From contig JADQAV010000018.1 in the NCBI GenBank assembly GCA_019775845.1, positions 317,044 to 381,043 on the forward strand: DNA of 64,000 nt, given 5' to 3'. The DNA is from Myrmaecium sp. VS I D KN 1. Its lineage: Eukaryota > Ascomycota > Dothideomycetes > Valsariales > Valsariaceae. Positions 1 to 61,409 of this stretch are shown one piece after another. Below the pieces are notes generated by a model. The model was given only the letters and a program-made list of their open reading frames with translations. It ran no database searches and was not told where the DNA came from. The position numbers and the translations under genes were made by a program. Position 1 is the first letter of the stretch. Every line of letters starts with the position of its first letter.

Positions 1-3000
1 CTTCCGTAGCTCTATAAAAGGAAATTTAGATTTAATATAACGAGTTAGAATATTAAGTATTAATAGGAGCGGGTTAATAAGAGGATAGCTTCTAAGAAGC
101 TAAAGGATTTAATAAAGTCTATTATATCTAGCTTATAAAATACTATTAGTTTAATACTATAGACTAAGACCGAGCTTAAACTTATAGATATTATTCTTAC
201 TTCTTTAATAAAATAAAGAAACTAATATATTATCTCCGTCTATAGATAGGCGATAAGATTTATTAAGTATTATAATTAAAGTAGATATAAAAGATAAAAA
301 TAAACTAGATATAGAGATTAGAATAGTTAGTAAGGTAGTAAATATCTAAAAAGTATATAAATTTATTACTCCTTAGCTAGTCGCAGTTTAATATAATATA
401 TATAACTTAAATATATATAATAAGGCGGATTCCGCAGCTATATCTTAATTACTAGGATTTACTATATTATTTAATTCTAGATTATTAGGGTTTATAGCGG
501 AGGGTAAGCCGGTAGATACTCCAGTCTCTAATATAGCTAAATATAAGAAGTTAAGCTATACTATACTATTAAGCTTATTATCTATCTTATTAACGTTATT
601 AGCGATTAGTATATAATTAGTACTCTTATATTAATATAGGTAGAAAAGTTAATTAAAGCTAAGTTTATTATTATTCTTAAGCTCCTTATTATCTAAACTC
701 TAATACTTAGATAGATACTAGGTAAGATCGCTCTTATTAAAATCCTAGTATAGAGTAAAATAAATAATACGCTCCTAGCTTTACTAATTAATATATATAC
801 TATAATACTTAAACTATTAAAGCCTACCCTAGCTTTATTATTAGAGCTTAGATTTTTATACGCTAAACCGGGCTAGAGCTCGGAGGTATTAATAGTAAGT
901 ATTATATATTATTACTTAATTAGTAGTTAGAGAGGCCTAGCGTTTATAATAGCCTTAATTATAAACTATACTTTCTTATAGTAGTAGATAGGTTAAGGCG
1001 CTATTAAGTAGTAGTTTAGAGAGGAAGAGATATATATATAGAAGGTTATATAATAGAACTATAAGAGTTATAGAATAACTAGTAGTATACTACTATTAAA
1101 TTAGTATAAAGTAGAGGCTTCGCCGAGCGGCCTAGCATGCGTAATTATAAGATAGATAAATATTATAACTTAAAGTAGTTATAAAACGCTTATTACGTAG
1201 TATTATACTAGATACTAGTTATATTAGTAGTAGTAATTATTATATAAGTAGTAATATAGGAGGATATAAGATATAAAGTCGTTATTAAGAACAAGAAGAA
1301 GTATAGATATATAAAATAAAATACCGCCTCTAACTATAGTATAATAATAAAAAACTCTCTATAGCTACTAAAATATTACTAAAGTCTAGTTAGAACTTTA
1401 GTATTAAGTATTAAGTATTATAAAGCTATATATGTAGTTCGACTTAAGGGAATTAAATTTATATAATTAATATTCGCTTAATATATAAAAGAGAATTATA
1501 ATTTATAAAATAAGGGTAGGATCTAAATTAATAAAATAGAAACTTATAAATATAGAATATATAGAGAATCCTATAGTACCTACTTAAATATTATACGGAT
1601 ATACTCTACTATTATATATACTTTAGGGTTTTATACTTATAGCTAATAGATATTATTTAATAGCTTACTAAGTTAATAGTATAATTAGCTATATAATATT
1701 AAATAAGGCGGATATAATATATACTAGCTTCCTATAGTAGTACTATAAGAAGCTAGTATAACTTATAAATATTTATCTACTATAGGTTAGTATAGAACTA
1801 TTATAAAAAAACTACTACTAAAATCTATAAGTATTAATATTTATAACTAAGTACTATTCCTAGCGTTTACTAGAAAAAAAGTAAGTAATACTCTATTTTA
1901 GTTTACTTATATATATTATAAGAGGAGTATAAAGAAAGATATAGTATAAAGGAGATATAAAAAGAGATACTAATAAGTATATATTAAAAGCTAGCCTCTA
2001 ATAAAGTAAATATAACTATATAAGTATAAGAAATATAGCGAGATAAAAATAAACGCTATACTATATATAGAGAGAAACTAGACTAATAAGAGCGTACTTA
2101 ATTACTATTATTAAGAGGAGAGGAAGGGTAATTAAAGTATATATAAGCTAGTAAAGTAGTACTTAATTTCGAGACTCTCTTCTTCTTCTTTAAAAGTTAT
2201 TTATAAATCTTAATAAAGTAATAGCTAAGTATATTTATAAAATTAAGATAGCTAGGAGCGTTATTATAAGTCTTAGATAGATTATTATATATATCCTTTA
2301 CTTTAATTCTTAATTATATAGTTTTTTTTAAAGTTATAACCTTAAGTACTAGCGAGAAGAATATATTTAGTATAACTATAAATATTAAAGTTAGTATTAT
2401 TTAGGCGGAAGATAAACTCTATATATAATAGATTCTTAGTATAGATATTATCCTAGTAGTATTAAGATATTTATTTATATAGTACTAAATATTTAAGAAG
2501 AGCTCCGGAGACTAAAGCGTATTAAAGTAAGTATTAAGGCTCTTAATAATTAAGTAAAGTAGTATTAAAGTCTATACGATCTACTTATTAACTAAGTTCT
2601 ATAAGTATTAGATAATAAGAAGTAAATTAAGTTATATAATTTACCTTAAAATTATTTAGTATCTTATTCTTATATCCTTTAATACTATCCGAGAATCTAG
2701 TTAATATAAGCTTCTAAATAGGATTATTAGGATTATAGTTATTATTAAAGATCTTCTAAATAACCTAAGCCTAGCGGAAATAATAGTAATAAAGAAAGCT
2801 CTCTTAACGAATCTCGCGAGTTAGGTAGAGAAACTTAGTATTATTCTCCTCTATTTTAATATTAATAGTAGTACGGAGAGCGGAATATTTATAAATCTTC
2901 TTCTTAAAAAAGGCGCGGACCTAACAGAAGAAGAAGTAATAATTAATAATAATTTTATCTAATTCCTATATATTATTAGTACTATTTTAAAGTTATAGTA

Positions 3001-3790
3001 ATAGGCTATAGTACTAAAGTAGTACGCGGAATAGTAGTTATATTTATTAATATTATACTAGCTAGCGAGTAGATAGAGGCGTTAAAATTAAGATTAATAA
3101 AGGTTTTAGAAATTAGACTAGGTATTATCTCTTATAAAAAAGTACTATATATACTAAGTAGTCTCCGGGGTAGTATATAAAGAGTAAAAATATAAATAGA
3201 TAGGTAGTAATAAATAAATATAAATAACTTAAAGGATAAAAAACTTAAAGAGAAGTTTATTAATTAAAGAAGAGCTAGTAACTTTTAAAAGATAGTACTA
3301 AGCTAGTTATACTAATTATTTTAGTACTTTTTCCTCTTCTATATTACTACTAGCTAAGAACTATATTAATACTATATATTTATAGTATCTTTATAGTAGT
3401 AATAATAGTATATACTAACTCTATATCTATATATATAAGATACTCTAACAGTACTTATTTAAGAACTATATATAAATTAGGAACGAACTAATACTATATA
3501 TATTTCTTAAATATATTATTATACTAATATTAAATACTTTAAAATATTATATATCTACCGCTTCTTATATCTATATTATACTTTTACGCTAATATATATC
3601 TCCTTAGTTACCGTATTAATATAGAAAGTTATTTATACTATTAATCTACTACTCCTCTAGCTATACTATATTTAAGTTCTAATATATATTAAGATAATAA
3701 TAGTACGAGTATAAAAAACCTCTTGTATAGTATAGAAGTATTAACGTACTAGACTATAGATATATAATACTAAATAACCGTAATTATACA
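1..3790. repeat. AT-rich, RIP-mutated repeat relic of unknown family
   Basis: The block is dominated by TpA-rich words, while CpA and TpG are almost absent over thousands of bases and scattered CpG remain. This is the dinucleotide signature of repeat-induced point mutation, which acts on duplicated DNA in Pezizomycotina. No open frame of useful length survives on either strand, and the element carries a great many changes throughout. I could not recognise terminal repeats or a protein family, so whether it was an LTR element, a LINE or a DNA transposon is open. The left edge of the window cuts it; the right edge is abrupt near 3790, where normal base composition returns. Confidence 0.85.
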
Positions 3791-4270
3791 GACCGCTTAC
3801 TCGCTACTAAAGATTCACGGTTCAGAAAACCCCTCTTGCGCGCCTATGTATTATTATAATCTTGTTATATTCCGATCTCTCCCTCGCCTGAAGTGACCTT
3901 TCCTACCCATGTTAAGATGTGGTAGGTACTACGGTAGGTCCACGGACGGTGAGTACAGTAGGCCAACAGTCCAATCGCCCGCAGTTGCCCCCTTGAATCT
4001 CCAGACGCATCTCCAATACTCCATACTCCTAGTACCTTACTTAGGTCCAGTTAACACCCGCGCATGTGCAGGAACCAAACACAAACATACAAGTTACACT
4101 GGCATTTTAAGCCGCCCTCAATCACTACCTGGCACGTAAAAGCGCTCGAGATCTTTGCTTTTAAACCCATGCTCCTCATCACCAGGAGAATCGTTTAAGG
4201 TTATTCACAGCCTTCATTGGATCATCACTCCCCAAGAAAGTACAACCTCAACATCTCCAAGCTACCGATC
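3791..4270 (+). promoter_or_regulatory. SGF29 upstream region next to the RIP block
   Basis: This is 480 bases of normal composition between the mutated repeat and the SGF29 start codon. It must hold the SGF29 promoter and leader. No TATA box or other clear element was recognised. Confidence 0.4.
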
Positions 4271-20923: not shown

Positions 20924-23743
20924 TCAAGGCTTCGAGGAAGAACTCTTCGAGTCTTTCGACTTCCAGAACTGCATCAGCTTGCTCAGCCGCTTCGATTTCT
21001 TCGACTTGTTCTCCTTGGGGATATTCATATGCTCCGACTGCGGCCGTTGCTCGATATGAAGCTTGCTTCTTTGACTACCAAAGTGGTTGCTGACTTCCAT
21101 GAGCCGAGACAAGCTGACGATACTGGAACGTTTGCGTCTGCGGACGGATGCCATGCTTGGAGTAGAAGAAACGGAGGAAGATCGGTCACCTCCATTTCGA
21201 GAGCTGAACATATGGGTGGTGTGCGGTGCATTGGTCATCGTGGACCGACTGCTAGTCAAAGAAGGCGTTCCATGAGTACCATCGACGGAGAGGCGAAACG
21301 GTAGATCCGGCCCAGGTTCACCAAAGACCCACGCCGATCGACCGTCTGCTACGGAAGACGTGGCGGTTTGGAGCCGCGAGTGGTCCTGGTAATCGAAGAC
21401 GTCTTGCGTCTGTCTAAAATCAGGCGACGAGAACGACGAACCGGACAACGTATCGGGAGTCAAGTAGGCGTTGGATGGAAGTGGGAGTGCCATGTCCATC
21501 ATCGGCTGTGGCAACTTGGTGACATGTGTAGGGGTTGTGGCTGTCCCAGCAGATTCTGTACACCTAGAGACCGATGATGTGCGAGGCTCCTCATAAGCTT
21601 CGACCACTTCCACGGGACCCCTTGCACCTAACCCAACCGGGTCCCTGGATCTCGGTACAGGAGTAACATCTCGAGGATCAAAGGCTTCCTCTGATGGCGA
21701 GACATCACGGATCAGGGGGCGACCGCGTCGGCCCTGAACATTACGCGATGCCTCCATGAAATTCCACTGGCAGTTCAGAGGGCTGGATTTACCCTGCCCC
21801 TCGGCTGCATAAAGTCCGGTGCGAGGTACGTCGTCAGCGGACTTCCTCTGAAGAGGCTCTGGCGCACTTCCTGTGCCATGCACTGGCCGGTTAGCTTCCT
21901 CGTCTTCCTCCTCCTCCTCCTCGAAAACATCAGTCATCTGAGAAACGCCGGCCAAGGCCGAGCTTCTACCCTCAAACTTCGCCAGCGCTGGCGCACTTTC
22001 CGCGCGACGGTGGTTATACAGTCCGATTCCAAGTCCTCCGCCGCTATGCAATGTTCTCCTAGTCACCGATTTGCCCCTTCCATGACCCCTTGAATACACG
22101 AGAGGGTCCAAGGCTGCATCCAGATCTATGACGGGACTCATATCGCCAGGGTCAGTGGAGGACGGCTTAGGTTTCCACTGAGAAATGCTAGTGTTGAGCA
22201 CGGGATGGTTCGTGACATATGCCGGCGGTGTGACGAGGGTGACAGTGTTGTCATCATCGAAAAGGGTCGCAGAATTAAGATCAAGAGCGTCCAGATCAAC
22301 TGAGGCATCCGTCGGAGCGACGGATTCGTCCGTCCCTGCGTCCTTTTTCTGGTCAGGATGACCTTTGGTCTTCCTCGAAATAATGGTGTTCGCCCACGAC
22401 TTGACTTTGCGGGGAGTCTTGTGGGACTTTCGCGGTGGCGTCGGTGGGCGCTTCTGGAAGTAATCGCAGCTATGCTCCACACCATCGACCGTGCAGGGTG
22501 AGATTGGAGGTGTGATACCAGGGGGAACTTGCAGAGTAGGTTCAGATAAGCTGATAGGAAGCTTATGCGAAGACTCTGATCGAAGATGGTCAAACCTGAG
22601 CCAGCTCTTTCGCTTAGGCGGCAAAGCTGGGCTCGAAAGACCGCCAGTGAGGTTGAGAGAGAGGGCCATCTCGGCACCTGTGGAGACAGGTCGTTTACGT
22701 TGCAGGTGTTCTTTCGATCGGTGCTTTGGTTTTTCCTTCATGTCCAGAATCGCACCTGCGGTGCTTGGCCGAGAGGAGCTCGCATCCTCTTCTACAGTCC
22801 TGCTGAGGTTCGGGCGGCCGATGCAGGCAGGAGGTGGGCTAGTTGCTCCTGAACTGATCACGGAGGTGAGGCTGTTCGATACAGAGTGGCCGCGAATGGT
22901 TGACATGGAGCTCTCGGTTTCGGAGGATATCGTCGACAACGGTCGTATATACTCCACCCTTTCCGAGAACCCAACTCGCGCTCTTGATAGCGGACGGCTT
23001 GGGGAGGAGTCCATGTCATCCGGAAACATACCTTGCTCCGAAGTGAGCTGGGTCGGGGACGGTTGTGGGGTGATTTCAATAGCAGGACGAGCCGGGGAGC
23101 CAGTCGCGTTCGATGAGCTGGTAGGGCTGGCAGGACTGTGACTTGATTCATCTGAGCTCGATTTAGTTTTTTGCAGGATCTTGGGTATGTCATGAGCGGA
23201 AATGGCCCCCGATCTCCTGTGAGCGTGCCCGCGCCTGCCGGCAGGTGGTCCGGGACGAAGAGTAGAATTAGGCGCCGGAAGAACACCATCACCATTACTC
23301 GGACTCGTACTCATCAAACCAACACCACCAACCTTTCCATCACCTCCGATAAACTCACTTCCACCACGACGATGGCCAAAACCCCTGGATGGAGAATTAG
23401 GCGTGTGCCGTGCCGGCGAATGTGGAGGAGAAGGTCGAAGGGATTGGCTCTGGTCGGAAGCGCTAGGGTTGAAAGAGAAATCCGGGAGAGCGCTGACAGA
23501 TTTCCGCTGGGTAGCTCCGACCATCTGTCTGCCTGTGGGTGGAACTTGAAGGGATATGGGCCTTCTGCTAGCAGCTCGGGGGACATGCTCCTCCGCTGAC
23601 GGCAGGGGAAATACAAAATCCGGGTTTGGCAGCATTTCCACAGGCCCAATGTTCGAGGCCGTGGAGAACAGCGGCGAGCCAACAGCGCCGGCTAGTTCCG
23701 ATGGACGAGGTACCTGGTGTCGTGCCATCGCGACCTGAGCCAT
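20924..23743 (-). CDS. Large Ser/Pro-rich, mostly disordered protein, conserved in Pezizomycotina
   Basis: A single-exon gene of 939 residues with no recognisable enzyme domain. The sequence is rich in Ser, Pro, Thr and charged residues. Islands that look conserved are GRRGHAHRRSGAISAHDIPK near residue 180, RKVKSWANTIISRK near 460, RGHGRGKSVTRRTLHSGGG near 560 and a C-terminal basic tail from SSIVSLSRLMEV to KSKKSKRLSKLMQFWKSK. From memory, related ascomycete proteins are labelled cell wall proline-rich protein, but there is no signal peptide or membrane segment here, so a wall location is doubtful. The many RRxS and SP sites suggest a phosphorylated intracellular scaffold; this is inference. 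The start at 23743 (MAQVAMARHQ) has a second in-frame Met five codons on. Confidence 0.85.
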   Translation of the reverse strand: MAQVAMARHQVPRPSELAGAVGSPLFSTASNIGPVEMLPNPDFVFPLPSAEEHVPRAASRRPISLQVPPTGRQMVGATQRKSVSALPDFSFNPSASDQSQSLRPSPPHSPARHTPNSPSRGFGHRRGGSEFIGGDGKVGGVGLMSTSPSNGDGVLPAPNSTLRPGPPAGRRGHAHRRSGAISAHDIPKILQKTKSSSDESSHSPASPTSSSNATGSPARPAIEITPQPSPTQLTSEQGMFPDDMDSSPSRPLSRARVGFSERVEYIRPLSTISSETESSMSTIRGHSVSNSLTSVISSGATSPPPACIGRPNLSRTVEEDASSSRPSTAGAILDMKEKPKHRSKEHLQRKRPVSTGAEMALSLNLTGGLSSPALPPKRKSWLRFDHLRSESSHKLPISLSEPTLQVPPGITPPISPCTVDGVEHSCDYFQKRPPTPPRKSHKTPRKVKSWANTIISRKTKGHPDQKKDAGTDESVAPTDASVDLDALDLNSATLFDDDNTVTLVTPPAYVTNHPVLNTSISQWKPKPSSTDPGDMSPVIDLDAALDPLVYSRGHGRGKSVTRRTLHSGGGLGIGLYNHRRAESAPALAKFEGRSSALAGVSQMTDVFEEEEEEDEEANRPVHGTGSAPEPLQRKSADDVPRTGLYAAEGQGKSSPLNCQWNFMEASRNVQGRRGRPLIRDVSPSEEAFDPRDVTPVPRSRDPVGLGARGPVEVVEAYEEPRTSSVSRCTESAGTATTPTHVTKLPQPMMDMALPLPSNAYLTPDTLSGSSFSSPDFRQTQDVFDYQDHSRLQTATSSVADGRSAWVFGEPGPDLPFRLSVDGTHGTPSLTSSRSTMTNAPHTTHMFSSRNGGDRSSSVSSTPSMASVRRRKRSSIVSLSRLMEVSNHFGSQRSKLHIEQRPQSEHMNIPKENKSKKSKRLSKLMQFWKSKDSKSSSSKP

Positions 23744-26700
23744 ATTGAAACCAGAATGAGACGGTTCCGGTGTAAATCCGGAGACAAGGATGATATTCGC
23801 GTTTTGCGTGAGGTGGGATTCCGTGGGCGCACGAGGTGGTTACGGCGAGGTATTCGCGCGGTCCAGGATACGGCGAGCTAGGCGGTGGAACGAGAAGGTT
23901 TAGAGGTTGAAGGGTAAGGTAGCGAGAATGAAATGCCGCACAGCGAGACAAGGGTGGGAAGAAGAGGCGGAAGCGCGGCGCTAAGAATGAAGACGAAGAT
24001 GCAATTATCTAGAGCGGCGAGTGTGAGTTAATGCTGGCGGGTGAGAAGGACAATTCGCGTCGAGCAGTGAACGTACAAGATCCTCGTAGGCGACGACAGG
24101 CGCATCGACACTGCGCCCGCGGATGAGCTTCAGGAAGCAATGAATGACAAAAAGGTTAAGAAAGGAGCGGACGGTCCACGACCTCAGCAAGACAGGCGAC
24201 GAAGCGGACCTGTCGAGTTGAGGATCGTTGAGGCCTGGAGGGGAAGATGGAGGAGGGGTGGTGGGAGAGTGGAGGTGTGGGCGGAAAGAGGTGTGAAAGG
24301 TGATGGAGGAGGTTGAAGGAACGACGACGGCGACGACGACGACTACCTTACGGCTTGCGGAACGGCACTTGGACGGAGCGCTTCGACAGGCCCCAGCAAG
24401 TTGCAGGCAGGCAAGGCAGGGCAGCGCAGGGAAGGCGGGGCGGACAGGCGGGCAGATCAAGCAGACCACTGACCACTGACCAGTTGAGTGCGAGGCCACA
24501 CAGGCCACACAGGCTCACACAGACCACACAGGCCACCGACCACTCACCACCGACCACAGGCGAAGTGGCAGGGTGCGCCGAGCGTTGCTAAAGTCGACCG
24601 CGTATCATGTCGGATAGTCTGTGGGGGTTTTGAGGGTTGAGCTGTCCAGTAGTCTCGGTCGCCTCCACGCACCGGGTCAGGACGGCTCGGAAGGAAGAGC
24701 AAAGAGCAGAGACTCGATGGAAGCCGGTGGTGTACCTCTATACGACAAGACTGCCTACCTATGTACAGTATCTATGTACCTACTACTGTACCTATCAGCC
24801 ATCGCCGGGGTGCTCCGCTCCTCACAGTGTGTGAGGTGGTGGGTATATAGCGGCCGTGATATTAATGTACGAAATTGTACCACGAGCCTTAACGAAGGGC
24901 AAATATGCCGCTGTTCACGCCTATCGTCATTAACACTGCAATCGCACTGCACTCACCACCTCCCGAATACTCTCAAGAACGACGGCCTTTTGTTCTCTCG
25001 CAGCTGTGCGCGCGCGCGCAGTCGCCCTTCCCACCTTCTCACAGCCACCGCACGCCTACCGTAGTCGGCTAGCCGGTCGGGACCCCGGAGATTTCGAGCT
25101 GCTGCATTCCGTCCCCGGCCGCGCCGTCTTGCCATTGGAGAGTGGGACCTCGCTCATTAAACGGCCAAAGATTACCTCCGTACAGCCTCATCTCGTCTGC
25201 GTTATCTTACCGTCTTCCAGCGGGATACGCGCCGCCCATCCAACCGGAAGCCCTTATCATCATTCTCACCTGCAATCTATTCCGTCAAAACACGGTTAGT
25301 CGCTGACGCCACGCCTCTGTTCAACCGAACGCTCGCATGCGCAAACGCGACCCTCCCTTACACCAATCACCTCGCCGTCCCACGCCCATCCGTTACCCCT
25401 GCGAAGAGGCGTGCAGCCCATGCGACACTAATTCACCGTCTGCGCCAGGAGACTCCGTACATTCCTCAGATGGATCTCTGTACGGATCCGAGTACGGTTT
25501 GTCCAGCGCAGTGCTGCAGGGCAAGGCAAGCCGCAGGTTAGCTTCGAGACTCAGGGTGCAAGTCACCAAAAGCATCAAGCCCTCCGGTAGCCACGCGCAG
25601 GACATCGAGACCCTCCCCATCGCTGCGCTGTCCGGTTTGTCCCCCAACAAGACCTTCTCCGTATCATATTCGGAGCGGTCCCGGCTCGCGATTGTCCTGA
25701 AATGGCCCGAATGGATCACTGTGAAAGCGTGCCTTCATCTCGGCTGACTCCATCCGGAACGATGGCTGGGCCGCCGGCGGATGGTGGGGAAGGAAATGGC
25801 GCTCGCTCTTCACAGCTGTCCATCCCTCGAGACGCCGTCGATTGTACGATGCCCTTCTGGCCCGCACCGATCCGTCGTCCATCAAACCCCGTGAACGTTT
25901 TTCCGCAGGGCGCGCTGGAACTTCGTCTTCGACGGTGTTGAGCGAGTTTGCTGTCAAACAATGCTTCGGTGCAGCGCGCTGGCTCCTTCGACTGGCCCTG
26001 GCTCGCCCTGGCTTGCCCCTCGAGGGCAAAAATAGCTGACGGGGTATCCGTGCCTGATCGTCACTCTCCTCGCTCTCTCCCGCCCCCCTTCAATTTGTAG
26101 GGCGCCTGCCCGTTGTTTGACGAACCTCGCTCAACGACCACCCCCTTGTTCCCTCCATCTCGATCTGCTCGTCGGCAAGGATATCCCTCAACGGTCCTCC
26201 TCGACCTCCCACCCGCGTCTCCCCTCCAGATCTCTGTGTGCCCTTGCTCCCAAGATCCTCTCTCCTTCCCCGTCTTCGTCTGTGAATCGCCATGTGGATG
26301 TCATTCTCAAACCTGTTCCTAGCCACCATAGTCGATTCGCACAGCGGAGGCATCGAACTCCTGTACTGTTGCAACAGGTAGACGATGTGCTCCTCCTCCA
26401 GGGTGAGCACAAGCCCTGCAAGCTTGAGCCAACCAACCACATGATGTACATGTGCAGCGTCACACACACGACCCAGCTGCCGTGATTCATGCCCAGTTCC
26501 CTTCCCCGGTCGTTCTGTAGGATGTGCCAGGATGCAAGGTCCTGCATCAGCTTCCTGCGGGGACGGAGGCTCATCTTGGCGCGTCTCTGATCCGGATGTT
26601 CTGCATATGTTTCTCCCAGTAGAACGCGTCCTTCGCAATGACATGCATGGAAAGGCGGAAATCCGCACTGGGACATCCAACACTTTCCGCCATCGAATTG

Positions 26701-36248: not shown

Positions 36249-37689
36249 AGTTCCTCCACGTCGTTATATACTCTCAGGTAAGAGCCCTCTTCTCGCTCTG
36301 CGGTCCTGCCACCCATTCTGATCGCCCGTCCCGCAGATCAGATTGATCAACGACTTCCATGTACCTGCATGGTCCCCTGTCGTTATCTCCCGGATACTTG
36401 CCCGAGTATCCCTCAATCCCCAGGATTTGTTACATATACACCTCCCGTTGGCATGACGACCCTTAGCAGCAGGTGTCATCATCTCGGGCTTTCCTTCTCA
36501 TCGTCACTTCCGACAGAAATCGTCCGCGCCGGCCTCTCCCCCCTTCCCCACAGGACTGAGCCCGGAGAGGACCTACTTTATGACCCCCTCCTGCGTCTGG
36601 TGGATTACCTTCCAAGCAGGGGAACTCGCGCCGGAGTTTGGGGAGGAAAAAAATGGTTGATTGATTGATTGACTTTGCCGGAAGTGAACCATGCCCGAGT
36701 TGTTTTTTATCTTGATTTTTTTTTGTGCTTTTGATACCTCCCCTTTCATTGTTTCCCTTCTCAAGGAAGATGGTTTGAAGCCTCCCAATTGTGGTGACGC
36801 GTGGGGGGTTGTCAGTGGCCGTCCTTGAGGACTTGCTTACTTACTTCTTCATCCTCCTCCTGCTCCGTATCCTTCGTCCCTTCAACCGGATGGAAGTTCC
36901 TTATATTCATATGGATTTTCTTTTTTCCTTTTCTTCTCATCCTGGCCCCGTGGAACCCCCCTCCCTTCCACGCGGATATGGTTGCGATAGTTGTGGCGAG
37001 TTGATTTTGACGGTGATATTTTACTGCCTTACTACCACTAGATTTGCGGATTTTTGATCGGTTTGGTGCTGCTTTTTTTTTTTTTTTTTTTTTTTTTTTT
37101 TGTCGTTCGCTTGATACCCGGTCTGGGCTTGCTCATGGGGGCATATGCACGGAGATAGAGAATTAGGTAGATAGAATATTTTCTTTTTATGAGATGAGTG
37201 ATATTGGGTTGTTTGATGTACTGGAGGGTTGTGTCCGCACACACACTCTCCTCCCTCTCTATGGTCTGCTGGTGTTGATGCTTGCCGTGGATGCTCTACA
37301 TGACGAGCACGGAAGTATTCCCTCCCTGTAAAGACAACTCCATGCATTCTATGCAACATCTCAATCGCGTGTGCCCACGAATCTATGCACAATTTCATGC
37401 AACCTCAAGTTCCGGGTCGCGTTTCTTCCGAGTGCCGAGGTTGTCAGCAGTTGGACCCGAGGCGGAGGGAGCGGGTGATGATGCTTACGAGAGAGAGAGT
37501 CGGGATCGGCTGTTCGTCCGACAATCTCCGCATCCCGACCGGCTGCATATGCATCACTTGTGTCTCGGATGACGAACGAGAGTGTGTGCCTCAAAAGCGT
37601 GCCTCAGAAAACCGCTGTCAATCCTGCTGCCATTCACGTATCATCAACCAACCCCGAAGCGAGCCGACACCGAAGACATAACTTATCAC
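36249..37689. other. Intergenic region, zinc-finger 3' end and GPx promoter
   Basis: 1.4 kb with T-rich stretches, including an uninterrupted run of 29 T at 37073-37101. Its right part, from about 37300, is the promoter and leader of the glutathione peroxidase gene. No gene was recognised. Confidence 0.45.
37073..37101. repeat. T29 homopolymer tract
   Basis: Twenty-nine consecutive T on the plus strand in the intergenic region about 820 bases downstream of the zinc-finger stop. Such a tract is unstable and prone to sequencing error in exact length. Confidence 0.85.
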
Positions 37690-38612
37690 ATGCCTCCCCT
37701 TCCAGTTCCTCCCTTTCCTCCCTTCGCTCCCCGATCGCTAGCGCCATCTTATTGCCGTCGTCGTCTCACTCGCCCGATAGCAGCCTATCGACAAGCTTCT
37801 TTGTTAGCACCATCATCACCATCATCACCCTCATCACCACCTGCTACAACTCCTCTTCGCAACTTCATCAGCAGCCCCGCCACCCCGCCACCGTCATCAA
37901 CAACTCTTCTTGCCCACCGCTCGCAAAGCGCAAGACTACTACGACCGCTATCCACTCGCGCGCCCCCACGGATACCTGCATACCCATACACAACCATGGC
38001 TTCCGCAACAACCTTCTACGACTTCAAGCCCGTCGACAGTACGTCCCCTTCCCTTCCCTCCCTCAAACAAAACCAACCAAGTACCTCCACCACAAAAACA
38101 CAACTAACCTCTCTTCCCAACAAACAGTCAAAGGCCAACCCTTCGACCTCACCAGCCTGCGCAACAAAGTGACCCTCATCGTCAACACCGCCAGCAAATG
38201 CGGCTTCACCCCGCAACTCGCCCAGCTCGAGTCGCTCTACGAGGACATCCGCGCCCAGCACCCGCGCGGCAGCGACTTCACCATCCTCGCCTTCCCCTGC
38301 AACCAGTTCGGCAACCAGGAACCCGGCGCCCCCGGCGAGATCGTCGAGTTCTGCCAGCGCAACTACGGCGTCACGTTTCCCGTGCTGGGGAAAGTCGATG
38401 TCAACGGGGATCACGCCGAGCCCCTCTGGGAGTGGCTCAAGGCGGAACAACCCGGTCTGCTGGGACTGAAGCGGGTGAAGTGGAATTTTGAGAAGTTCTT
38501 GGTGGGACGGGATGGCAAGGTGAAGGGCCGCTGGGCGAGCACGACGAAGCCCGAGGCGCTGCGTTCGGTGATTGAGAAGGAGTTGGCGGAGGCGCCGGCT
38601 GCGAAGGCGTAG
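37690..38612 (+). CDS. Glutathione peroxidase (Gpx3/Hyr1-type thiol peroxidase) with alternative N-terminus
   Basis: Thiol peroxidases of this family reduce hydroperoxides with thioredoxin or glutathione and can relay the signal to AP-1 factors. Exons are 37690-38038 and 38128-38612, with an 89-nt intron. The catalytic core shows the peroxidatic Cys in NTASKCGFTPQ, Gln in PCNQFGNQEPG and Trp in KWNFEKFLVGRDG. A downstream ATG at 37996 in excellent context (ACAACCATGG) gives the usual 175-residue cytosolic form starting MASATTFYDF. The frame stays open upstream to an ATG at 37690 in weaker context, adding 102 residues. That extension is rich in Ser, Pro and Arg with almost no acidic residues (YCRRRLTRPIAAYRQ, SARLLRPLSTRAPPRIPAY), the look of a mitochondrial presequence. 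The dual form is inference. Confidence 0.88.
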
Positions 38613-52942: not shown

Positions 52943-54886
52943 TCAACGGATGTTAAAGGTCTCATCCGGAATTTTACCTTCGATCTTGTGAGACATGGCT
53001 TCCCCATCCATCATGCCATTGAGGTAACATTCTCCAATCAATATGCAAAATGGCTTTTTTGTCTTCTTATCCTCCTGTTGCCTTAACACAAGTGGCACGC
53101 TGCAACCTCCTATAATGCAAACCATGTCCCCCGGCTGGCACGCCTCCGGACCAAGGCCGAGGAAACCTTTCTTTGTCTTCAGCATGCGTCTGTTGTACGT
53201 CACAGCTGCGATTCTTTCGATGATTTTGTCCAGACAAGAGTTATTGGCTCCCCTCATTATAGCACTGAGACTGAGGTCGTTGCCGTCAACTCTTCTTTGT
53301 CTAAAGACTTCCTGACAAACTAATTGCCAGTGATTGGGTGGAATTTTGCCCTCAGAGTCTCGGTCTGCGACGAATATGCGCCATACGTTCCTTGGAGGGT
53401 TGCCGTTGGTGTCCCAGCATACCATCTCGAACCATGACTTCGGAATTGTCCCGAGCATATTCCGTTCCGCCGTTGCCTCGATAGTATCAACAACCCACCC
53501 ATCAGCTAACAATATCGGGCTTGTACCTTTAGTCACTCTGAGACTGGGTGGGTTCTTGCTCTTGAATCCTTTGAATGCATAATAGCGGCGCTTCCCAGGA
53601 AGATCCACAAGCGTGTCGGCGTTCTTGCGTACAGCGAACTTATCAGATCGCATTCCGTGGGACTCTTTATCGAGCGTACATATCCACGATGGCAGCGCGG
53701 CATCCGAGATGACAGGAGCCCATAGTCGACATATTATGTCAAGACAACTCGCCGTTTCGTCTTCGTGGGAATCGAGGACAAATCGGATGAACCAGAGTGC
53801 AAGGTCGACGAATGGCTTCGCGTAATCGACTGGACATGCCGCCTTGTTCCCTCTTAATGCGTGCACAGCATCGAGGACGATTTTGCCAGTACTCTCCGGG
53901 AGGCCAAGGAGTGACGTATCAGACACGCTAGGTGCACTTGCTGAAGCGTCTTTCGCAAGAGAAAGCACTGCGTAAATGATATCGTGCGCTTTCCCCGCGT
54001 GGAAAGTGGTCAACATTGAGACCAAGCTTTCCAAACCCAAAATCTTAATGACCTGGCCGTCGTCGTTGAGGCGCACCATATCTTCCAGGACTGTAACCAG
54101 CCTACTGGCGCCCAGGCCCTCGACGTCCCCTAAGCACTCAGGGTCATTTTTGAACTCCTCGGATCGTCGGAACTTGGATTTCAGGAGAGGTGACAGCGTT
54201 TCCAGCAGCTCGACCGCGCAGGAGAAATCATACCACGTAATCTTGTATTGGTCCCAGTACAACCAAGGATCTGTCGCTAGGGCAGCTTCCTGAAGGACCC
54301 ATCGTCGAGAAAACCAGTCTCTGCGCATGATTTCCGTCAAGGCGTACCACATTCGACAGGAGGTTTGATCATCATCAACAATCCGATTGTAATCGCTGAG
54401 GACTGGAATTTGTTTTAACATCTGCTGGATCATGTTGAATGCCAGTCCACCTTCCTCGCCAGCCGTGCCGAGCCATATGCAGACTCTTTCTGCTTTGTGG
54501 AAGATTTGATCCATTATCTCCACCTGGTGGGACTTTTCCAGGTTATCCAGCTGGTTGATGCACACTGCATCGACCCAGAAGTGCCGGGCTGCGGACTTGT
54601 CTCGCAGCTGTCTGAGAGCTGCTTCAAGGTTGCTCGTGATGGCGAACCGCCTTTTGAAATATCCATCACATACACTTAACACTCCCGTCGCTTTACCGGT
54701 TCCCCAGGCGTAAGAGAGGGCCCAATATGAATCTTCAACGTCCGAGTTTCTTAACGTACATTCGATCTTATCATCGTGTTGCGCCGACGGATGCAAGGTT
54801 AATATTCTAATTCTTCTAGGTCCGAGTTCCGCATACTTGTAATCGGACACTACTGTCGAGCGACCGACGCTGGCGGTATCGTCCAT
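52943..54886 (-). CDS. Heterokaryon-incompatibility (HET) domain protein
   Basis: HET-domain proteins trigger cell death when incompatible fungal cells fuse; many in each genome have no known trigger. This single-exon gene encodes 647 residues. The HET domain lies at about residues 25-210. Its first block is SYWALSYAWGTGKATG, its second FWVDAVCINQLDN with KSHQVEIMDQIFHKAERVCI, and its third RDWFSRRWVLQEAALA. A long helical middle follows, and a C-terminal module with PGDMVCIIGGCSVPLVLRQQ and GECYLNGMMDGEA, common to HET proteins of the HET-6/Tol type. There are no NACHT, WD or ankyrin repeats. It has only about 320 bases to the next gene on one side but 3.4 kb of empty sequence on the other. 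Confidence 0.92.
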   Translation of the reverse strand: MDDTASVGRSTVVSDYKYAELGPRRIRILTLHPSAQHDDKIECTLRNSDVEDSYWALSYAWGTGKATGVLSVCDGYFKRRFAITSNLEAALRQLRDKSAARHFWVDAVCINQLDNLEKSHQVEIMDQIFHKAERVCIWLGTAGEEGGLAFNMIQQMLKQIPVLSDYNRIVDDDQTSCRMWYALTEIMRRDWFSRRWVLQEAALATDPWLYWDQYKITWYDFSCAVELLETLSPLLKSKFRRSEEFKNDPECLGDVEGLGASRLVTVLEDMVRLNDDGQVIKILGLESLVSMLTTFHAGKAHDIIYAVLSLAKDASASAPSVSDTSLLGLPESTGKIVLDAVHALRGNKAACPVDYAKPFVDLALWFIRFVLDSHEDETASCLDIICRLWAPVISDAALPSWICTLDKESHGMRSDKFAVRKNADTLVDLPGKRRYYAFKGFKSKNPPSLRVTKGTSPILLADGWVVDTIEATAERNMLGTIPKSWFEMVCWDTNGNPPRNVWRIFVADRDSEGKIPPNHWQLVCQEVFRQRRVDGNDLSLSAIMRGANNSCLDKIIERIAAVTYNRRMLKTKKGFLGLGPEACQPGDMVCIIGGCSVPLVLRQQEDKKTKKPFCILIGECYLNGMMDGEAMSHKIEGKIPDETFNIR

Positions 54887-57800
54887 GATGGCTTGAAACC
54901 ATGACAGTATGGTATTATAGCAACACCAGTATGCCCTTATGACACTGGGAACACGTTAGCCAGCCAATGCAGCTTTCGGGAGAAGGAAGAACGAACCGTG
55001 CAATGAGATTGTGGACTCAAGCTCCGATGCTTCATACTCCCTAAGTGGTGAGTACGCTCCCTTATTTATCTATGGTCCTGAGGCCACCTTCACCACGGGA
55101 TCTGATTCCATAGCAATGGCCATCTGATGCATTCAGCTGTTCATCTGCAGTCTGTACCCCAAGGTTCCTTGCATCCTGCGATGGGACTGGACAATGGGTC
55201 TGGAGGCCTCCTGACTTGGGTTGCTCATAGCATCCAAGCGTCGGGGGTGACGAGCGTCGACCTGCATCCTCTGGAAGTCGACCTGATCAAGGCGAGCTCG
55301 GCGACTGGTACTGTGAGGGCGAATCGCAGGAGACGAAGTGAACAGCGTGATGGATCTTGATACATTCAATATGGAAAGGTGCGTTATTGAGCATCCATGA
55401 CTGACAGCTTGGCGGCAATCCCTCGAAGAGTGACATCTGCGGCAGTTCATTATGCTCTCGTGAGTGTGGATGCGGCCTCCCAACTGCTCCGACTGAAGCA
55501 TTATTGGTCGCGCTCTTTCTTTGTTCTGCAGGCTTGGATGTCATGCTTTCCTGCAGGGGAAGAATCCTCTACATGTGTACTACGTTTGGACTGGCATAGG
55601 ATGGGCCGCACTACACTCTCCACATGTGCGGCCTCTTGCGCGAGCGCGGTTGTCCTTGAAAAGGCCTCACGTCTCTTGCTCCATCTGGCTCCTGCTGAGC
55701 GCTGCAGAAGTTCGCTTCAAAATCGTCTTGAAGGTGACCTTAATGGGAATACAGTCTAGCGCATGGGGTAATCCAAGTATTCGGTTGCGCTGCCGACCCA
55801 TGTGCAACCAAAAGGCGCGTAGCAAAGCTATACCAGCCATCCGAGGGACGTTCTCCTGACCACGGGCGGTGCTTCGTTGCACGAAAACTGAGGGGAGTGG
55901 CGTCCAGCTGCGTTCGAGTCTGTGGCAAAGGTTTGGGAAAACAGGGGGTTCCTGAAGTCCAAGATTTAGTTTGTGTAGGAAGACTCAAGGAAAGGCAACT
56001 CTGCGCTTGGTATATATCTTTTACTGGATTTAAGCTGTTTAAGCTGACAGAATTGAAGCATCTGCAGACGGCATATCTCGAAGAACGTCTCTTATGCCCT
56101 GATCAAGAACAGTGACCGCATTCCCGTCCATCATGGTCTTGTCGGGACTCGACTGCCCCCTCTTCCCCCCTCTCCGCCCCGCCCGCCCCCTCACCCTTTC
56201 CCCGGCCCGAGCCTCGAGGGAATTGGTTTCCAGATACACAGAGACTCATAGAACCTTAACCCGGAAAATTGGGCAACACAAGCAGGTGGTGTCCAGCGCG
56301 GCGTGTTGGCAGGAGAGGCCCTCTCCACATATCCATACATCCCGAAAACTTCTGGCAGTCACCTCACGCACACACTTTCGAGCCCAACGTGAAATTCTTA
56401 CATCTCGAACCTGGTGTCTCTAGCCAAGCGAAGGCGAAACAGAGCTGCATGTACGCCGGGATGGGGACGATGATCTGCATTGGGCAATCCGCAGGGGTGG
56501 ACGCGGATAGGCAGGCACCGTGGAAGCAACGCACGAAAGAGTTCCCTCCCCTGTTGCTGCTGTTGTTCACCACTTACTCTTCCCTGGTAACCATGCAGTC
56601 TAGGGTCTGGATCTCGGGAAACCTGTCAGAAGAAACCTGGAGGGTACAAGGAGAGTACTGCAGATGAACCACCTACTACGGTGCCGGTTGTAGTGGTCCA
56701 CGCCTGCGCGTCTGGCTTCGGGCGTCAACACCTCCCTGCCTTCCCTTTCCGGAACGACTCGGAATGGTCCTCTGATGCGTAGTAACGCGTTTTCTTTAGG
56801 GGTAGCAGGGTGGAGCAGACACTAGGACCGCAGGAAACTTGGGAAATATATCAAATACACAGCGAGATACTTGGGCACCTTCGGCTATACGATCCACGGA
56901 CGAGAGCCTCTGCAGATCCGGCCGCCAGGTGTGTAGCAATCTTGAGAAGTGCCTCAGTTATGCTTGTATGCATCATCGACACCAATAGAAGACAACCACA
57001 ACTGATGACTTTAGCATTGGAGCACCTGGCCACATCGACGGTGCTGTGCTTCATCTTTTGTATCTGTACTTCCAGATGTACAGGTTCATGCATTGGTATG
57101 CAGCAAGGAAATTGCAGGAAGGATGAAAGAACATGGTCCGTCTGTGTCTACATTCAGCGAAGACATGCGAAGGGTAGATCTCACCGAATCGCAGTCTAAA
57201 GAGACTGACGTTGTGCTGAATTTGCCCTACTCGCGTGTTCCCTCTCATTGTAGGTCTACCCATACTGATATCACTACCGCAGATCCAGTGTCCATAGGAA
57301 ATGAAGCAGGCGTCCAGCCTATCCTTCGAGGGCTGCAACAACCTGCCTCCAAGCTCTTCTCCATCCACACTTCCAAGGCAGCAGTCATCTAGGATACACC
57401 TGATGGATCCAATGCAGGCGGACGGGGTTGAAATGATATGGCGGACAGTGAAGATGATACCCAGTTCCCACTTAGATAGGCAATAATATTCAACCAGCCG
57501 ACTGGCAAGGTGCGCTACAACGTCCCACACCTTTTCAACACGACCACCGCCATTCCTAGCCTGAACTGATAAATCCATTCTACACGTTCTTCCTCGGCCT
57601 TCGAGGCCGTACATGTGGCTAACATCTCTCTCTCCCTCGTCCGCGGCCTCATCCTCTTTATTCTTCACCCCTTCCCTGTCACGCTCCCTTCCCATCTGAT
57701 TGGATTGCCGGTAAGGTGCAGCAGGGCGGGGAGAGGAGGATAAGGGGTAAAGACGGAGGAGGGCATTGAAAAGTCCTCGAGGAAGGCTTTGAGGAGTCTT

Positions 57801-58309: not shown

Positions 58310-59285
58310 ATGGTTCATGCGGAAGCGAGCACGTTCGGCTCCGGCATCACGAAGCGGGAGGCGTATGAGCAGGTGCTGGAGCAGGCGAAGGCTTTGTTTG
58401 ATGGGCAGAGGAATTGGGTGAGTTCTGCTTGGTTGATTGGCTTTTGATTTGATATACTATGTTCTTTTCTTGTGAAGTCAATACGTTTCTTTTCCGTCTC
58501 TTGTTTCGGTCTCTGCGTCGCTCTTTCGATGTCATACATTTTCAGTCAGATTACAAGAACATTTCTCTTTCGGTCTCGCTCTCATGAGTCTGTGCACTTT
58601 ACTTCTGTCGCCATTATAGGCGCCATTATGTATAAGATGAATATGGAGATATCCTCGAGATTTCCACACATTTATGCCGTATATACTAATGATCGTTCGC
58701 CCAGGTCTGGTAATTAACCCTCAACGGCACTCATACACCATACCATCCATCACTTACACTCCCAACCTTCCTCCTCCCAAACTACAGCAACCTATCCAAC
58801 ACCGCATCCCTACTGCACCACGCCCTCCACTCGCTCCCCTCGCCCAGCAACCAGGTCAACTGGACAGGCTTTTACGTGGTCGACCCGACGACACCGGACC
58901 AGCTCATCCTCGGCCCGTTCCAAGGCCACGTCGCCTGCCAGACGATCCAGTTCGGCCGGGGCGTCTGCGGCACGGCCGCGCAGCGGCGGGAGACCCAGCT
59001 CGTCCGGGACGTGGACGCGTTCCCGGGCCACATCGCCTGCGACGCGGCGAGCAAGAGCGAGATCGTGGTGCCGATCGTGCAGGATGGGAAGGTGAGCAGC
59101 CGGAGCGAGCGGGCTGGGCGACCTTCCTCCCTTTTCTCGTTATTGAGGCTGACACGGTTACTTTATTTCTTCAGGTCAAGGCGATCATTGACATCGATTG
59201 TGCGGAGCTGAACGGGTTTGATGAGGAGGATCAGAAGGCGTTGGAGAAATTGGCGGCGCTCTTGGCGGAGTCGTGTGATTTCTAA
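58310..59285 (+). CDS. Free methionine-R-sulfoxide reductase (fRMsr, GAF domain)
   Basis: Reduces free methionine-R-sulfoxide using thioredoxin, repairing oxidised methionine in the cytosol. Exons are 58310-58417, 58705-58709, 58788-59091 and 59175-59285, giving 175 residues. The N-terminus MVHAEASTFGSGITKREAY leads into AKALFDGQRNWVCNLSNTASLLHHAL, where VC is encoded by the 5-nt second exon. The GAF core has NWTGFYVVD, LGPFQGHVACQTIQFGRGVC with GTAA, and GHIACDAASKSEIVVPI; these hold the three cysteines used in catalysis in the family. It ends with VKAIIDIDCAELNGF and LLAESCDF. Length is normal for the family (about 170-180). The neighbour downstream is an Old Yellow Enzyme, also a redox protein, in the same orientation. 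Confidence 0.92.
58705..58709 (+). other. 5-nt micro-exon of the fRMsr gene
   Basis: CGCCCAG acceptor, five exon bases (GTCTG), then a GTAATT donor. Exon 1 ends after the Trp codon and exon 3 starts with C-AAC. Only with these five bases does the frame join as N-W-V-C-N-L-S-N, matching the family's usual NWVCNL. Direct joining of exon 1 to exon 3 would read Gln-Pro-Ile in the wrong frame. The flanking introns are 287 and 78 nt. Confidence 0.75.
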
Positions 59286-60062
59286 GGGAGAATGAGGATG
59301 TGGAGGAGGAATGTATATGGCTTTTTACGCTGGTAGGTACACAGGAATTCTAGGCAGTTTCACCTTTCTTGCCTTCTCTGTCGTTGTTGCGAAGGATCAC
59401 GCCGTATCTCCACCACATGCAGGTCGATGCTTGGGGCAATTGGGTTAGTGACCCTTCCCCATATTTTGCCACGACACCGTACATATCCTCAACAAGTCAA
59501 AGTCCGTCGTTGTCCTGCATGCTTGAAGTCTTCCTAAGTCGCCACGTCGGACTCGCTCACATCTCGCATTTGTCACCCGAGTCCCAAGGCAACAAGGCAT
59601 GACACTTCCCCTTGCTTTGTAAGCGGCACATCTCCCCGAACCCCGGGTTCCATACAGAATTCTCCGAGGAGCAAGGTTGTGTCGTCCAATCAGAACCCAG
59701 CACGATCTTTGCTCCCACAATTATCGTCACGCCCGCCTCATCCCCCAGGCACTTTCTAGAAGACAACGGTGTTTACCGCCTTATCCCCGACGGTTGGTAA
59801 TCAGAGAGAGGGAGAGAGGATGCTCACGGTGGAGCTACCCTGATCCCCTTAGAGTTAATGCAACCAAGGTACCACACTTCCTTGCCCATCATGCGTCGTT
59901 CCGTTAAAAGGGTTTCCTTCTCCGCTTCCTTCAACTTCTTCTCTACCACATCAAACCATTGTACTTGAATCTGCTACTTGACACCCTCTTTGTTTCGTCA
60001 ATTCCTCCTGGAACCGCTGTGATACCCTCCCACTCGTTGACATCTCACCACCCACACACACC
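59286..60062 (+). promoter_or_regulatory. fRMsr 3' end and OYE promoter
   Basis: 777 bases between same-direction genes. The OYE side is pyrimidine-rich (59905-60060). No clear TATA box. No gene was seen. Confidence 0.4.
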
Positions 60063-61409
60063 ATGGCACCTGCCGCACGTTATCAGTCCGAAGACGTCTC
60101 GGCTGCGCCGTTGGGCGAGCCGCTCAAGTTCGAATTCTCCGGTAAGAGCGCGCCGAACCGCTTCCTCAAGGGTGCGATGACGGAGCGTCTCTCCTCCTGG
60201 GATCCGGTCAACCTCGAAGCCCGCGGGATCCCCTCGAAGAACCTCATCAACGTCTATCGCCGGTGGGGCGAGGGCGCCATCGGCAACATCCTGACCGGCA
60301 ACATCATGATCGAGTACGACCACCTCGAGGCCGCCGGGAACGCTATCATCCCCCGTACCGCGCCTTTCTCGGGCGAGCGCTTCGAGCGCTTCAAGGAGAT
60401 GGCGGAGGCCGGCAAGGCCCACGGCATGCTGATGGTCGGTCAGGTCAGCCATCCCGGTCGACAGGTCGAAGACCGGATCCAGAAGAACCCCATCTCCGCC
60501 TCGGACGTCCAGCTTCAGGGCAATGTGTTGGGCATGACCTTCGCCAAGCCGCACGCCGCGTCGGAGGAGGAAATCCAGAACGTGATCGAAGGCTTCGCGC
60601 ACGCGGCCGAGTACCTGGACAAGGCCGGGTACGACGGCATCGAGCTGCACGGCGCGCACGGCTACCTGCTCGCCCAGTTCCTCTCCCCGACCACGAACCG
60701 GCGCACCGACCGGTACGGGGGCAGCCTCGAAAACCGGGCCCGGCTGATCCTGGAGATCGCGCAGGCGGTGCGGCAGCGCACCCGGCCCGACTTCATCCTC
60801 GGCATCAAGCTCAACTCGGTCGAGTTCCAGGACAAGGGCTTCACGCCGGAGGAGGCGAAGCAGCTCTGCCAGATGCTTGAGAGCCACCAATTCGACTTCG
60901 TGGAGCTGTCCGGGGGCACGTACGAGAGCCTGGCGTTCACGCACCGCCGCGAGAGCAGCCGGCGACGGGAGGCCTTCTTCCTCGACTTCGCCGAGCTGAT
61001 CGCGCCCGCCCTCACCAAGACCAAGGTCTACGTGACCGGCGGCTTCAAGACGGTAGGCGCGATGGTGAAGGCGCTGGCGAGCGTCGACGGCGTCGGGCTC
61101 GGCCGCCCCCTGTGCCAGGAGCCGCGGCTGTGCCGGGACATCCTTGACGGCAAGGTCACGGGCGCGATCCGCATGCGCTTCGACGAGGACGACTTCAAGG
61201 TCACGAACGTGGCCGCCGGCACGCAGATCCGCCAGATCGGCAAGGACGAGGAGCCGATCGACCTCAGCAAGGAGGAGAACGTGCAGGCGTTCGTCCAGGA
61301 CATGCAGCGGTGGGGGCAGAAGCTGGCGAGCGACAAGGAGATGAAGGAGTACGGGTTTATCGATCTGGAGAGCTACCAGGCGAAGCCGTACGGGAGCGAC
61401 GATGCGTAA
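60063..61409 (+). CDS. NADH:flavin oxidoreductase / Old Yellow Enzyme family protein
   Basis: An FMN-dependent TIM-barrel ene-reductase family member; such enzymes reduce activated C=C bonds with NAD(P)H. It is a single-exon gene of 448 residues. Key segments are SAPNRFLKGAMTERLSS, WGEGAIGNILTGNIMIE, MLMVGQVSHPGRQ, GYDGIELHGAHGYLLAQFLS with PTTNRRTDRYGGSLENRARL (the FMN and substrate-binding core), VELSGGTYES and VYVTGGFKTVGAMVKAL with VGLGRPLCQEP (phosphate binding). A C-terminal extension of about 60 residues follows the barrel and ends SYQAKPYGSDDA. There is no iron-sulfur cluster domain. No signal peptide, so cytosolic. The natural substrate is unknown. GC-rich codon use is uniform. Confidence 0.93.
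   Translation: MAPAARYQSEDVSAAPLGEPLKFEFSGKSAPNRFLKGAMTERLSSWDPVNLEARGIPSKNLINVYRRWGEGAIGNILTGNIMIEYDHLEAAGNAIIPRTAPFSGERFERFKEMAEAGKAHGMLMVGQVSHPGRQVEDRIQKNPISASDVQLQGNVLGMTFAKPHAASEEEIQNVIEGFAHAAEYLDKAGYDGIELHGAHGYLLAQFLSPTTNRRTDRYGGSLENRARLILEIAQAVRQRTRPDFILGIKLNSVEFQDKGFTPEEAKQLCQMLESHQFDFVELSGGTYESLAFTHRRESSRRREAFFLDFAELIAPALTKTKVYVTGGFKTVGAMVKALASVDGVGLGRPLCQEPRLCRDILDGKVTGAIRMRFDEDDFKVTNVAAGTQIRQIGKDEEPIDLSKEENVQAFVQDMQRWGQKLASDKEMKEYGFIDLESYQAKPYGSDDA

Follow-up and report, generated by a model that had tools for sequence, protein, structure and literature searches.

Does the gene for a putative free methionine-R-sulfoxide reductase (fRMsr) in the 64,000-nt window (the whole stretch of DNA analysed here) contain an exon of only five nucleotides? 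A preliminary description of the locus had proposed that the bases GTCTG constitute such an exon and that their inclusion is the only way to bring the downstream part of the gene into frame. Our analysis indicates that this fRMsr gene very probably does carry GTCTG as a micro-exon; the second part of the proposal proved too strong, as several other splicing models, among them one with a single GT-AG intron (58432-58787), also leave the frame open.

The spliced product looks like an fRMsr, an enzyme that would repair oxidised methionine. Two Pfam families, GAF_2 (E = 2.5e-13) and GAF (E = 4.3e-10), pass the cut-off with the spliced protein, and the best relative of solved structure is yeast YKL069W (1f5m; E = 4.5e-59, residues 3-175), which we take to be the yeast fRMsr; another match is 3mmh, named "Methionine-R-sulfoxide reductase" (E = 3.1e-35). 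Three cysteines (C88, C98, and C122), presumably the catalytic or active-site residues, are invariant in a five-sequence alignment (A1). The alignment with YKL069W runs without a gap through DGQxNWVCNLSN, with VC identical in yeast, and the motif NWVCNLSN that inclusion of GTCTG had been said to restore is an exact match to that of the yeast protein.

The predicted gene consists of four exons on the plus strand. Exon 1 (58310-58417, 108 nt; MVHAEAS...DGQRNW) starts at the first ATG downstream of the preceding in-frame stop, is aligned to YKL069W from residue 3 onward, and has a complete TGG codon at its 3′ end. Exon 3 (58788-59091, 304 nt) opens with the third base of the codon for C38, continues with NLSNTASLL... 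to DGK, and contains C88, C98, and C122. It is followed by intron 3 (59092-59174, 83 nt; donor GTGAGC, branch GCTGAC, acceptor TTCAG) and by exon 4 (59175-59285, 111 nt including the TAA stop), which aligns to the C-terminus of YKL069W. Since exon 1 closes on TGG and exon 3 resumes at the final base of the C38 codon, five bases are missing between them. The candidate micro-exon (58705-58709) would supply these: GTC encodes V37, and the remaining TG opens the TGC codon of C38. The four exons together form a 528-nt coding sequence for 175 amino acids and a stop. The preliminary description had given the same position for GTCTG, between CCAG and GTAATT, the same length of 287 nt for the preceding intron, and a spliced total of exactly 528 nt; all of these were reproduced.

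The micro-exon lies in an AG-GTCTG-GT context between two introns of plausible length (287 and 78 nt). Intron 1 (58418-58704) has the donor GTGAGT, a match at six of six positions to GTRWGY, the Aspergillus nidulans consensus given in PMC6616335. Its acceptor is CCCAG, and a predicted branch site, TACTAAT, is located at 58684-58690, where ACTAAT (from 58685) fits RYTRAY and 14 nt separate the motif from the 3′ end of the intron. Intron 2 (58710-58787) appears weaker: its donor, GTAATT, matches five of six positions and is without G at +5, its acceptor is ACAG, and the best-placed branch-like motif, CACTTAC, is imperfect, as is CACTCAT; the sole RYTRAY match is 3 nt from the donor and hence unusable. 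To derive a local splice-site model, the window was also searched heuristically for other introns; this crude search returned 89 candidate placements with 38 acceptors and at most four placements per donor hexamer, a set too small and too noisy for that purpose. GTAATT is present ten times in the window, counting both strands, and is the donor of none of these 89 noisy candidates, which is weak evidence against the intron 2 donor.

To estimate how often such an arrangement arises by chance, we subjected the 370-nt interval to 20,000 dinucleotide shuffles and required the intron on each side to be 40 nt or longer. An AG-N5-GT arrangement of any sequence arose in 42% of the shuffles, so a five-nucleotide candidate alone means little. 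Candidates that encode VC were far rarer (0.175%), and those that also had a CTAAY or CTGAY branch motif upstream rarer still (0.025%). When the requirement was relaxed to any dipeptide with a score equal to or above that of VC, the frequency was 4.5% with a profile of bacterial relatives and 2.1% with the same profile plus yeast; this looser test combined with a YAG acceptor, an RYTRAY branch site, and a donor matching at five or more of six positions gave 0.06% and 0.01%, respectively. At the actual site, the acceptor is CCCAG, ACTAAT lies 14 nt from the 3′ end of intron 1, and the intron 2 donor matches at five of six.

The bacterial relatives were found with alignment A1, which is led by the window protein, using search patterns placed outside the micro-exon region; the best 80 of at least 590 confirmed bacterial loci were retained, and bacterial records were the only ones among these best 80 of at least 590 matches. 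Scans with the protein as query gave one pattern match in viral contigs and 41 in prokaryote contigs, with no relative in either set. Within the best 80 of at least 590 bacterial loci, exactly two residues separate the W36 and N39 columns in every sequence (80/80), and exactly twelve separate L29 from N42 (80/80). At position 37, 77 of these 80 have I, V, L, or M; at position 38, 73 have A and none has C, so C38 is not conserved among these bacteria. The five bases are thus needed for the conserved reading frame: a transcript that skips them is out of frame, the spacing they provide is that of 80/80 relatives, and the model that contains them heads the 887 in-frame models described below.

Splicing models were enumerated with at most two introns in place of 58418-58787 and with an intact frame required; the start codon, intron 3, and exon 4 were held fixed. 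Single introns of the GT-AG, GC-AG, GT-AC, and AT-AC types and two-intron combinations with GT or GC donors (10,584) were considered. Donors were taken from 58370-58560 and acceptors from 58420-58860; a second exon could be no longer than 150 nt and an intron no shorter than 40 nt. The enumeration yielded 887 distinct in-frame proteins. These were scored with two profiles, one of the 80 bacterial sequences and one of the same sequences plus yeast. The micro-exon model ranks first with both (209.6 and 218.6 bits for the bacterial and the bacterial-plus-yeast profile, the order used throughout); the window protein was excluded from both profiles, which are not fully independent of it in that the bacterial loci were found and ranked with A1, where it stands first, and their rows were aligned together with it before its removal. 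By profile score alone, VC is 21st of 400 dipeptides with the bacterial profile and eighth when yeast is added. The micro-exon reading of the preliminary description is therefore supported as the best of the enumerated models, with inclusion of GTCTG as a prediction. Two further classes of model were rejected. The best U12-type AT-AC intron scores lower than the micro-exon model, at 200.8 and 208.9 bits. Extended second exons of up to 116 nt, in phase and with a GT donor, have an open frame at ten other placements, but add residues inside the motif where the examined homologs have none.

Among the rivals to the micro-exon, the serious one is a single 356-nt intron from 58432 to 58787 (GTTGAT...ACAG), which would give NWVSSACNLSN and a protein of 178 amino acids, with three extra residues. 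It is canonical GT-AG, in frame, and free of stops, requires no unusual exon, and is the best of the six single GT-AG models at 202.4 and 210.9 bits. These scores are 7.2 and 7.7 bits under those of the micro-exon model and place it only 10th and 8th; the three residues are inserted where yeast and all 80 bacterial relatives (the best 80 of at least 590) have none, and its donor (58432-58437) matches the A. nidulans consensus at three of six positions while leaving unused a six-of-six donor 14 nt upstream. We regard this single intron as unlikely. Closer in score, and less probable still, is an intron from 58418 to 58782 with a non-canonical acceptor (GTGAGT...AAAC), for which the product reads NWYSNLSN. 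It has the correct length and frame and is second of the 887 with both profiles (207.8 and 215.9 bits), leaving the micro-exon model a margin of only 1.8 and 2.7 bits. Introns of the required GT-AC type are hardly used by the major spliceosome, and both residues that it introduces are rare among the best 80 of at least 590 relatives (Y at position 37 in 1/80, S at position 38 in 1/80), which makes it highly improbable.

A different tiny second exon could also restore the length and frame; the five nucleotides at 58589-58593, which would give NWSVNLSN, rank third of 887 with both profiles (206.1 and 214.4 bits). This choice needs a GC donor, scores 3.5 and 4.2 bits below the micro-exon model, and puts at position 37 a serine found in none of the best 80 of at least 590 relatives; alternatives of this kind are the least credible of all, to the point of being negligible. 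Finally, the entire 370 nt from 58418 to 58787 might be removed, by skipping or as a nested twin intron, with a truncated product or a decaying locus as the outcome. The outer donor is the six-of-six GTGAGT and the outer acceptor is CAG, and skipping is the simplest GT-AG pairing. The result would be a protein of 142 amino acids with the frame lost after residue 36, at odds with the good conservation of the fRMsr sequence encoded by exons 3 and 4, in which all three cysteines are present; we consider this outcome very unlikely.

We thus hold with considerable confidence that the locus is a four-exon fungal fRMsr gene in which exon 2 would be the constitutive five-nucleotide GTCTG, included most likely through ordered removal of introns 1 and 2. 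Only five bases separate the intron 1 acceptor from the intron 2 donor; the factors for the two sites probably could not bind at once, which suggests that splicing is ordered. Intron 1, with its strong donor, TACTAAT branch site, and CAG, would be paired across the intron and leave first; its removal would join GTCTG to exon 1 as the new end of that exon, after which the weaker intron 2 would be spliced as an ordinary 78-nt intron. Prp40 may have a role in the splicing of GTCTG: according to the accessible text of the review PMC8624252, this protein bridges U1 and the branch-site factor SF1, is needed where an exon has no room for enhancers, and may secure intron definition there. A hairpin that draws the splice sites together was also considered and is unsupported, as RNA folding of the interval revealed no unusual structure (z = 0.17).

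Errors at either intron would be costly. Skipping of the micro-exon leads to the frame loss and 142-residue product given above, retention of intron 1 to 45 amino acids, and retention of intron 2 to 38; since skipping or either retention destroys the protein, inclusion of GTCTG would be all-or-none for function. The micro-exon might in addition serve as a regulated on/off point, with fRMsr output (for example, under oxidative stress) tuned by the order or efficiency of splicing. This suggestion follows from the weaker donor and branch site of intron 2 and from the absence of enzyme after skipping or retention; we think it unlikely.

Several other features of the window were recorded. An NADH:flavin oxidoreductase domain of the old yellow enzyme type (59982-61406, plus strand; E = 6.1e-40) is encoded about 0.7 kb downstream of the fRMsr gene, and a glutathione peroxidase domain (37482-38609, plus strand; E = 9.6e-34) marks a second antioxidant gene about 20 kb away. 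The minus strand carries a 670-amino-acid open frame with a HET (heterokaryon incompatibility) domain (52943-54955; E = 5.1e-30) and a 970-amino-acid open frame, measured from stop to stop, with no Pfam match at E = 0.001 (20924-23836). Positions 1-4000 have a GC content of about 0.25 and are set off from positions 5000-64000 by an edge near 4 kb; TpA/ApT is 1.55-1.61 per kilobase of 1-4000 versus 0.65 in 5000-64000, and (CpA+TpG)/(ApC+GpT) is 0.01-0.21 versus 1.15. This composition is the mark of strong RIP-type mutation, and together with the HET-domain gene it suggests a filamentous ascomycete. Scans of the window with Rfam and for tRNAs produced no matches.

The predicted exon would add a housekeeping redox enzyme to the documented cases of ultra-short fungal exons; a search of the open-licence literature found no paper describing a micro-exon or an intron in the fRMsr genes of fungi. 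GTCTG lends itself to a clear test: its length is not a multiple of three, a conserved motif fixes its sequence, and the intron before it (287 nt) far exceeds the gene's other two (78 and 83 nt) in length; given these three properties, the order of intron removal should be directly measurable. The locus also illustrates a hazard for annotation, in that a gene finder blind to exons of 5 nt could choose the poor donor at 58432 and produce an acceptable-looking protein with three false residues.

The preliminary description had placed an exon of five bases near the lower limit known; published examples are smaller. The available text of PMC12940212 reports a 1-nt exon in 20 Fusarium CYP621A orthologs, supported in two species by RNA reads. 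It also refers to 2-5 bp exons in Arabidopsis, Drosophila, and humans and to a 1-nt exon in Arabidopsis APC11. The Fusarium case is close to ours: both concern filamentous ascomycetes and a tiny exon within a conserved motif, with a length that is not a multiple of three, and in both the argument proceeds from a phase mismatch and an intron-free relative. The Fusarium exon, which in that text is absent from nearly all gene models, differs in its length (1 nt versus 5), in belonging to a P450, and in its backing by 20 orthologs and RNA reads; the fRMsr exon is predicted from the gene sequence. Exons down to 6 bp are described for P450 genes of Phanerochaete chrysosporium in the accessible part of PMC1184071, and an 8-nt example in that of PMC12940212; as far as these texts go, they too are very small, fungal, and in some instances part of conserved motifs, in a basidiomycete and a P450 family, unlike fRMsr.

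The Xlr2 gene of Trichoderma contains a 20-nt micro-exon regulated by glucose (PMC11121469, in the text available). It resembles the fRMsr exon in its ascomycete host, its length not divisible by three, and its absence from the annotated gene model, and differs in its greater size, its place in a transcription factor, and its glucose regulation. Stwintrons, as presented in the accessible text of PMC6616335, share with the present gene two adjacent intervening sequences in a fungal gene and their consecutive removal. The introns of a stwintron are nested, one lying inside a splice signal of the other with no coding bases between them, whereas five lie between the fRMsr introns, each of which has its own donor and acceptor; since removal of the whole of 58418-58787 breaks the frame, the arrangement is not a stwintron. 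Exons of five bases and below are already known in fungi, and the fRMsr gene is a good new example.
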